Source: Gimesia aquarii
Lineage (GTDB): Bacteria > Planctomycetota > Planctomycetia > Planctomycetales > Planctomycetaceae
Direction: 5' to 3'
Assembly: GCF_007748175.1 (NCBI RefSeq)
Contig: NZ_CP037422.1
Span: 1,032,528-1,096,527 of the forward strand
DNA length: 64,000 nucleotides
Position numbers and translations under genes: made by a program. The notes beneath the pieces are model-generated. The model was not told where the DNA came from and ran no database searches. It worked only from the letters and a program-made list of their open reading frames with translations. Below, one piece after another: positions 59,795-61,000 of the stretch. The stretch's first letter is position 1, and every line of letters begins with the position of its first letter.

Positions 59795-59830
59795 CCATTG
59801 ATTCCCGCCTTTAAAGGCGGGAATCAATGG
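59795..59830. repeat. 36-base perfect palindrome left of IS110
   Basis: CCATTGATTCCCGCCTTT at 59795-59812 is directly followed by its exact complement at 59813-59830 with no loop. It lies just left of the structured leader of the IS110 gene. It may be the element's left edge or its target site. Confidence 0.7.
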
Positions 59831-59974
59831 TGGCGAGTGTCAGATCGTGTCCGCCCCTGGTCTCAAAGACCGGTCTGTAGCTTGATCGCCACTCGCTCTC
59901 TACATGCCTTAACCCGTACAGTCGCCTGAGCGGTGCCACAACACCAGCTCGTATCAGCAAGGAAGGGACTTAGC
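59831..59974 (+). ncRNA. Structured 5' leader of the IS110 element, bridge-RNA candidate
   Basis: GCGAGTG at 59833-59839 pairs with CACTCGC at 59890-59896. GATC at 59843-59846 can pair with 59884-59887. The inner hairpin GGTCT-CAA-AGACC is at 59859-59871, with a smaller GGTG/CACC hairpin later. IS110 elements are known to encode a bridge RNA in the non-coding part before the recombinase, so this is where one is expected. Its loops have not been matched to target or donor DNA. Confidence 0.5.
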
Positions 59975-60928
59975 ATGCAACAGCATAACACAATTTTCGT
60001 CGGAATCGATATTGCGAAATTTAAATTCGATGTCGCTTTCTCACATCTTTCCAAAGGAACTACCTATAATTATACACCAGAGGAGACCAAAAAGTTCATT
60101 CAGATACTTCGAGATATTCAGCCGCAACTGATCTGCCTCGAAGCAACAGGAGGACTGGAACGAAAACTCGTTGCCTGCTTACACAAGCATCAGTTCGCCG
60201 TGGCAGTCGTGAACCCCAGACAAATCCGGGACTTTGCCCGGGCCAAAAATCAACTTGCCAAAACTGATCAAATTGATGCCCGAACCATCATGCAGTTTGC
60301 ACAACTGATGCAACCCCGCATTACTCCAGCTTTAACACAAGCTCAGCAGAAAATGCGTGAATTCAGTTCCCGCAGACAGCAGGTCAGTAAAATGATCATC
60401 CAGGAAACAAACCGTCTGGCATCCACTGCGGACAGAGACGTAAGTAAGCTGATTCAGCAGTCGATTCGTGCCTATAAAAAGCAGATCAAAGTCATCGAGA
60501 AGAAACTAAAGCAACTGATCGCCGCTGATAAGCAGGCTCAGGAACGCGCCAACATCCTTCAATCGGTTCCAGGTGTAGGAGGGATTACGGCGGCCTTACT
60601 GATTGCAGAGTTGCCAGAACTAGGGAGTCTGAATCGAAAACAGATCGCACGGTTAGTAGGAGTTGCGCCAACCAATCGGGATCGCGGAATCATGAGAGGG
60701 AAACGAACGATCGGTGGAGGACGGGTCGGTATCCGTAATGGATTGTATATGCCTACCGTTGTCGCTCAAAAACATAACCCCAAAATCTGTGCGTTCTACA
60801 AACGGCTCGTCGAAAGTGGGAAGCCCAAAATGGTCGCACTCGTGGCGGCTATGCGGAAACTGCTCACCATTCTCAATGTCATGATCAGAGAAGGGAGAAA
60901 ATGGGATGAAAAAATAATTAAAGCTTGA
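59975..60928 (+). CDS. IS110-family recombinase (DEDD/serine type), possibly inactive
   Basis: 317 residues from ATG 59975, with an AAGGAAGGGA site about 7 bases upstream. The RuvC-like half has all four acids: Asp12 (GIDIAK), Glu56 (LEATGG), Asp98 and Asp101 (KTDQIDART). A coiled coil spans 120-190. The Tnp domain begins [13 protein letters not shown]. At the position where IS110 enzymes have a serine in the xxSG motif (NRDSG), this protein has Arg237 (NRDRG, codon CGC at 60683-60685). That serine is thought to be the catalytic nucleophile, so loss may mean a dead copy. Confidence 0.93.
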
Positions 60929-61000
60929 TTTTAGAGACAGTCGCTACGTGTTCTCAATTGCCATTCTGAATCGTCAATTCTGTTTCTAGTGGCATACAAT

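Follow-up and report, generated by a model that had tools for sequence, protein, structure and literature searches.

What is the structured leader in front of the recombinase gene at position 59975 of the window (the whole stretch of 64,000 nucleotides of the Gimesia aquarii genome that was analyzed), and what does the perfect palindrome beside this leader do? The first-pass annotation read the locus as an IS110 element with a leader that could be a bridge RNA and with the palindrome standing next to the element. We hold with high confidence that the element is an insertion sequence of the IS110 group and, within it, of the IS621 type, whose active members would rely on a circular form, a promoter at the circle junction, a bridge RNA and joining at a CT core beside a REP-like hairpin, and that the copy in the window is probably stranded. 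The first-pass suggestion that this planctomycete version is undescribed stands in part: a literature search of titles and abstract openings, with most subscription papers outside its scope, returned nothing that dealt with this element or with bridge RNAs whose 5′ ends are palindromic, but the kind of element, an IS110 with a bridge RNA, is already known.

Borders, copies and target site of the element

The element occupies positions 59743-60945 on the plus strand (1,203 bp; equally 59741-60943). Its borders were fixed by alignment of the ends of 15 copies designated family A, found in five genomes; the stretch conserved among them extends from a left TGTATCT to a right ACAGTCG, with CT beside each end. 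The left CT core is at 59741-59742, leftward of which the copies diverge; the right CT core, followed by the AC of the right target, is at 60944-60945. A paralogue of the empty site, located at 1349170-1349335 of the same genome, contains both flanks without the element, and its matches to them have two bases in common, which fits a CT core. The CT at both ends and the empty-site paralogue indicate that insertion was scarless and occurred at a short core. The left end (232 nt) contains the RNA, and the right end (15 nt, 60929-60943) contains the left donor sequence, a combination of long left end and short right end that is the layout of the IS110 group (PMC11208160). Because the copies fix the borders at the two CT cores, the palindrome at 59795-59830 is internal to the element, 52 bases from its left end, and not beside it as first annotated. 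The palindrome was also considered as the insertion target and rejected: it is inside all 15 family A copies, and the target is a hairpin at 59719-59740.

That hairpin, GGGCGAACACATGGGTTCGCCC, is a REP-like host sequence with an 8-pair stem that constitutes the left half of the target site, with the element inserted at its 3′ edge. A similar hairpin, recognized by eye, abuts the left end in 11 of the 15 family A copies, the exceptions being L063, L065, L066 and L067. The exact predicted target occurs at one site in the G. aquarii genome, versus three for a reversed control. The flanks of the element (59493-59742 and 60944-61048 of the window) belong, as judged by eye, to a dispersed repeat that contains REP-like hairpins and whose ends, ACTACCACGAAATTCACGAA ... 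TTTCGTGTCTTTCGTGGTAGT, are inverted, and parts of 59700-61100 match 23 places elsewhere in the genome. Within the element, an 8-bp inverted repeat, GACTGTCT / AGACAGTC, lies at 59757-59764 and 60935-60942, at unequal distances from the cores; its left arm is invariant in ten family A left ends and, within the RNA, might base-pair with the left donor guide as well. Downstream of the element, a gene at 61326-61979 encodes a MerC-like membrane protein (PF03203, E 3.7e-17).

Matches to the recombinase were found in 25 of 59 related genomes, and close or moderate relatives are present in several copies per genome (four in G012, eight in G016, nine in G007 and eleven in G017). A direct look for named relatives gave a single locus (L096), with 85% amino-acid identity, in a metagenome-assembled genome of Gimesia, a genus of the Planctomycetota. 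The G. aquarii genome (7.2 Mb, a single contig) has only this copy at the DNA level; comparison of proteins adds a broken relative at 3762526-3763472, along with three weaker matches. A second bridge RNA was located at C1:3762362-3762505 (L133, L194; E 1e-22), with GAGCGTAGCGA as the loop of its 5′ hairpin; it is upstream of a related recombinase for which the match is split into two pieces, and this copy looks broken. At C1:1349088-1349129 (L092), 42 bases match the IS110 right end in reverse orientation inside the paralogous repeat, and are probably a decayed second insertion.

Guides and structure of the leader

Four guides can be read in the leader, all on the plus strand. The left target guide with the core, TCCGCCCCT (59850-59858), agrees with the flank, TTCGCCCCT, with one mismatch. 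The right target guide GTAG (59877-59880) is complementary to the core plus right flank, CTAC, agrees with the flank solely in the AC after the core, and is identical to the right target guide of IS621. The left donor guide ACAGTCGC (59918-59925) is identical to the right end ACAGTCG plus C, and the right donor guide AT(CAG)CAAG (59953-59961) can pair with CTTGTAT of the left end, in the split register of IS621 (PMC11208158).

When flanks and guides were compared for 48 copies from ten families (L072 being placed by hand), with one copy representing each family, left guides matched their own flanks at 46 of 60 positions (mean 24.6 and maximum 42 in 20,000 shuffles). For right guides, the count was 41 of 50 (mean 17.1 and maximum 39 in 20,000 shuffles). 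Guides fitted the flanks of their own copies better than those of other families, none of the shuffles doing as well; when the representatives were redrawn at random 30 times, p never exceeded 0.0005, the floor for 2,000 shuffles. In family A alone (15 copies, 8 nt), the left guide scored 103 of 120 against a shuffled mean of 83.7 and maximum of 101 (p 0.00005); the right guide fitted no better than shuffles (43 versus 42.1, p 0.42), little beyond the AC after the core being shared. The eight copies of G016 have three different left guides (TCCGCCC, ACGACCC and TCGGCCC), which match at six of six positions in three copies, at five of six in three, and at three of six in two that are shifted by one base; the fit within this genome alone is below significance (p 0.10 on the left, 0.09 on the right). 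Copies L061, L067 and L087 are one base out of register. As for the donor guides, in all 13 representatives of the ten families the seven terminal bases of the right end recur in the leader, which also has a right donor guide able to pair with the left end, even where the ends vary (ACAGCCG, ACCGTCG, CTAG, CTCG), and the spacing of the right donor guide is that of IS621 (PMC11208158) in 11 of the 13, with one base more in G007 and one fewer in G142. The first-pass proposal that loops of the leader might match both junctions is thus borne out for the target flanks as well as for the ends of the element.

The nested pairings of the first-pass annotation (59833-59839 with 59890-59896, and a hairpin at 59859-59871) recur slightly enlarged in the minimum-energy fold, in which 59832-59839 pairs with 59890-59897 and the hairpin extends to 59857-59873. 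Fold energy was rejected as evidence for structure, the energy of the single leader being ordinary (z = -0.61; 47 of 200 shuffles fold as well); the structure emerges solely from comparison with relatives. In an alignment of 19 leaders, one segment contains both target guides (59831-59898, as in the minimum-energy fold) and another contains both donor guides (59913-59967, predicted by RNAalifold). The resulting two-loop structure, most of which was derived by RNAalifold from the same 19 rows used for its test, has 93.1% standard pairs and 14 pairs with changes on both sides; 67 cells are changed on both sides, versus a shuffled mean of 19.4, a count reached by none of 500 shuffles and by none of the slid controls (at most 18).

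R1, a covariance model built from the 19 leaders, all of them from the phylum of the window and none from IS621, matches the window at 59831-59967 and also finds the bridge RNA of Escherichia coli IS621 within a 3,449-base locus, over all 134 positions of the model (37.6 bits, E 1.3e-9). The match (L131:1704-1843) ends six bases before the annotated IS621 transposase, a gene copy marked as having an internal stop. Among ten plasmid-borne IS110 loci, R1 detected leaders in nine, that of Rufibacter with 16 bits only, and none in Acinetobacter. It matched 36 of 170 genomes of the family (E to 1e-5), 62 of 397 genomes of the class, 34 of 397 genomes of the class of G459 and 10 of 294 genomes spread over the phylum (E to 0.001), in sets that overlap and with strict filters that may miss weak matches. 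A search of both strands of 59500-61500 with Rfam gave 13 matches, all below the gathering scores (best E 0.32). Bridge RNAs have been predicted in 85.7% of IS110s (PMC11208160). Target guides that fit the flanks of their own copies, donor guides that fit the ends of their own elements and the detection of the IS621 RNA by R1 make it very probable that the leader is a bridge RNA, as the first-pass annotation supposed.

Expression of this RNA may depend on a circular form. In active relatives, the element is predicted to leave as a circle, and the joining of its right and left ends would create a promoter from which the bridge RNA could be transcribed. In the window, a putative -10 box, TATCTT (59745-59750), would be combined with TTGATT (60925-60930) at a spacing of 17 only in the circle. 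The pattern TTGAnn-17-TAnnnT spans the core in 11 of the 13 representatives, in a best-of search of the sequences without a shuffled control; no convincing junction promoter was found in G012 and G016. The modeled transcript would begin in the left end, pass over the palindrome and extend to GCAAGGAAGGG, and would comprise a 5′ stem-loop (encoded by the palindrome), a target-binding loop and a donor-binding loop. The recombinase with its bridge RNA would then join the circle to a CT core beside a REP-like hairpin.

The closest parallel is IS621 of E. coli (PMC11208160, PMC11208158; PDB 8wt6), whose recombinase is homologous over residues 3-311 of the query. Common to both elements are a CT core, the right target guide GTAG, a REP-like target, a split right donor guide (AT-NNN-CAAG) and a bridge RNA in the left end, very probable in the window, with a 5′ stem-loop and target and donor loops; the putative pair of boxes across the circle junction is promoter-like in its sequence, as in IS621. 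They differ in the left target and donor guides, in the 5′ stem-loop, which here is a longer and perfect palindrome, in the distance of about 38 nt from the predicted start to the hairpin, and in the catalytic serine that the window copy lacks. Elements of the IS1111 group with a seekRNA (PMC11187229) similarly combine a DEDD recombinase with a guide RNA, but in the window the RNA is in the left end and not in the right, which is only 15 nt long, and instead of the 11-13 bp subterminal repeats described for that group there is just the 8-bp inverted repeat at unequal distances.

The recombinase and its catalytic residues

The recombinase gene (59975-60928, plus strand) is full-length and encodes 317 amino acids. 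The first-pass assignment to IS110 is confirmed by PF01548 (E 1.5e-21), by the C-terminal Tnp domain PF02371 (E 1.8e-12) and by the NCBIfam model NF033542, "IS110 family RNA-guided transposase" (208 bits, cut-off 140). The DEDD residues D12, E56, D98 and D101 are all present and are invariant across eight aligned proteins. The best matches of known structure are IS621 (PDB 8wt6, E 1.3e-33) and ISCro4 (PDB 9t56, E 4e-33), the latter likeness being one of recombinase homology.

At residue 237 (codon 60683-60685), the protein has arginine where the catalytic serine of IS621 aligns, this serine having been placed in the alignment by its published name, S241, and by its motif. Seven of seven aligned relatives have serine at this position. 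A motif scan caught 21 variants, of which the 20 others have serine and solely the window locus arginine, and a reading of tblastn matches found serine in 168 of 170 other loci, a set in which loci overlap and copies repeat. The two exceptions are a fragment with arginine (L034, G027) and a locus with threonine (L218); in a broken copy (L050), matched in two pieces, the position reads as serine and as glutamate. Locus L218 (G802) also has a perfect 34-base 5′ palindrome in the bridge RNA that adjoins its threonine-containing recombinase.

The window copy thus retains the RNA and the DEDD residues, and lacks the serine of the C-terminal Tnp domain that is needed for activity; substitution of alanine for catalytic residues is reported to abolish recombination (PMC11208160). 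Since Arg237 replaces a serine kept in 168 of 170 other loci, the window copy is probably immobile and stranded at its present site. The substitution is read as a loss of activity in a single copy of a member family, not as the mark of a separate family. If the copy is unable to excise, the junction promoter TTGATT-17-TATCTT would never form and the bridge RNA of this copy may be silent.

The palindrome and the 5′ hairpins of bridge RNAs

The palindrome at 59795-59830 was described correctly at first pass: it consists of two 18-nt arms, 100% complementary, without a spacer. Its inner 26 bases have no second match in the window with up to three mismatches, zero being expected in shuffles. It abuts the target-binding loop, which is the place of the 5′ stem-loop in IS621. 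In eight distinct family A left ends, 99.2% of palindrome cells pair. Both partners vary in three pairs, a number attained in 28 of 500 shuffles, and one of these pairs occurs as all four Watson-Crick types; the covariation score was reached by none of 500 shuffles. Most likely the palindrome encodes the 5′ stem-loop of the bridge RNA, with a general role.

Hairpins with a self-complementary center recur at the 5′ ends of other IS110 bridge RNAs. Two surveys were made of hand-picked hits, approximately one per element type or genome (among those fetched and left unscored are L143, L162, L181, L187 and L193). In the first, 58 of 59 hits were examined, one being too short, and 35 had a hairpin abutting the loop above the 95% shuffle level, versus 23 without. 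Among types with loops of up to 9 nt, a limit chosen after this survey and then kept for the held-out set, the central 4 nt were self-complementary in 9 of 17 and the central 6 nt in 6 of 17 (P 2e-7 each, against chance expectations of 1/16 and 1/64); with all loop lengths, the central 6 nt were self-complementary in 6 of 28 types (P 4e-6). In the held-out survey, with the rule fixed, 53 of 56 further hits from the R1 searches of the two classes were examined, three being too short; a loop-abutting hairpin was present in 27 and absent from 26. With loops of up to 9 nt, the central 4 nt were self-complementary in 6 of 13 (P 7e-5) and the central 6 nt in 5 of 13 (P 1e-6), and for the central 6 nt in all 27 hairpins, P was 6e-5. 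All of these P values are optimistic, because types may share ancestry and because the scoring favors paired centers (loopless hairpins gain by two or three central pairs). The hairpin of IS621 itself has GGCC at its center with mismatches beside it. One member (L212) has no hairpin at the loop and a 30-base perfect palindrome 14 bases further upstream.

A second class of hairpins has long stems and loops of 11-13 nt. In the held-out survey, every loop of this class (13 of 13) has the sequence GA(A)GCGYAGCGA(A), which is common to L208, L209, L216, L220, L224-L230, L247 and L264, whose stem sequences differ. In the first survey, the motif GAGCGYAGCGA was present in 4 of 10 loops of this length and close variants in 5; the remaining loop, that of L166 (G026), comes near to the motif's reverse complement, as though its hairpin had been turned around. 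The motif was also considered as a host-wide repeat in ten genomes and rejected, its counts not being consistently greater than those of a reversed-pattern control; they exceed the control in some genomes (42 versus 19 in G549, 38 versus 20 in G017).

A more specific proposal, which we regard as unlikely, is that the palindrome acts as a self-pairing handle by which two bridge RNAs would be joined through a continuous duplex of about 36 bp; this would make the 5′ stem-loop an assembly module and not a passive cap, and members without a palindrome would use the long stem with the loop GAGCGYAGCGA instead. By computation, the RNA of the window palindrome can form a 16-pair hairpin or a 36-pair duplex of two molecules, the duplex being favored by 11.6 kcal/mol; the same calculation favors dimers for all hairpins tried (-2.8 to -6.7 for three with loops, -13.7 to -20.7 for five others). 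For IS621, the target and donor loops of one synaptic complex are inferred to come from two bridge RNAs, and dimers of the complex have been seen; its 5′ stem-loop is not visible in the structure, and without it binding is lower and recombination slightly reduced (PMC11208158). Such a two-RNA synaptic complex would be served by a 5′ end that pairs with itself, but a symmetric DNA site would look alike. The palindrome might be a binding site in DNA for a dimeric protein of the host or the element near the bridge-RNA promoter. It is perfect through its center, which a hairpin loop does not need, and self-complementary centers recur in unrelated sequences; this explanation is nevertheless quite improbable, for other members have, equally far from the target-binding loop, loops of 11-13 nt or imperfectly matched arms that include G-U pairs, no evident motif that one protein could recognize is common to the palindromes, and IS621 has a published 5′ stem-loop at that very place.

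It is very doubtful that the palindrome is a terminator or insulator that shields the bridge RNA from outside transcription: the hairpin is very strong and its minus strand was flagged as terminator-like, but families B and D have not retained the minus-strand tail, as judged by eye, and a plus-strand terminator was rejected, there being no run of T after the palindrome. The least tenable alternative, that the leader is no guide and attenuates translation of the recombinase in cis, has in its favor the position directly upstream of the start codon and the mention in PMC11208160 of a presumed modulation of ISPpu9 recombinase expression by small RNAs, but it has almost no claim to belief when the loops track flank and end sequences across families, as an attenuator would not need to do.

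With the leader read as a bridge RNA and the palindrome as its 5′ stem-loop, RNA-guided recombination of the IS621 type is extended to a planctomycete element and its relatives, in which all four guides are readable, and natural guide variants are on offer in G016, with three left-guide alleles among eight copies. The role of the IS621 5′ stem-loop is left unsettled by the account in PMC11208158, and the self-complementary center and the conserved loop provide two testable hints. If the palindrome does serve to pair two bridge RNAs, the 5′ stem-loop would be an assembly module of IS110 recombination.
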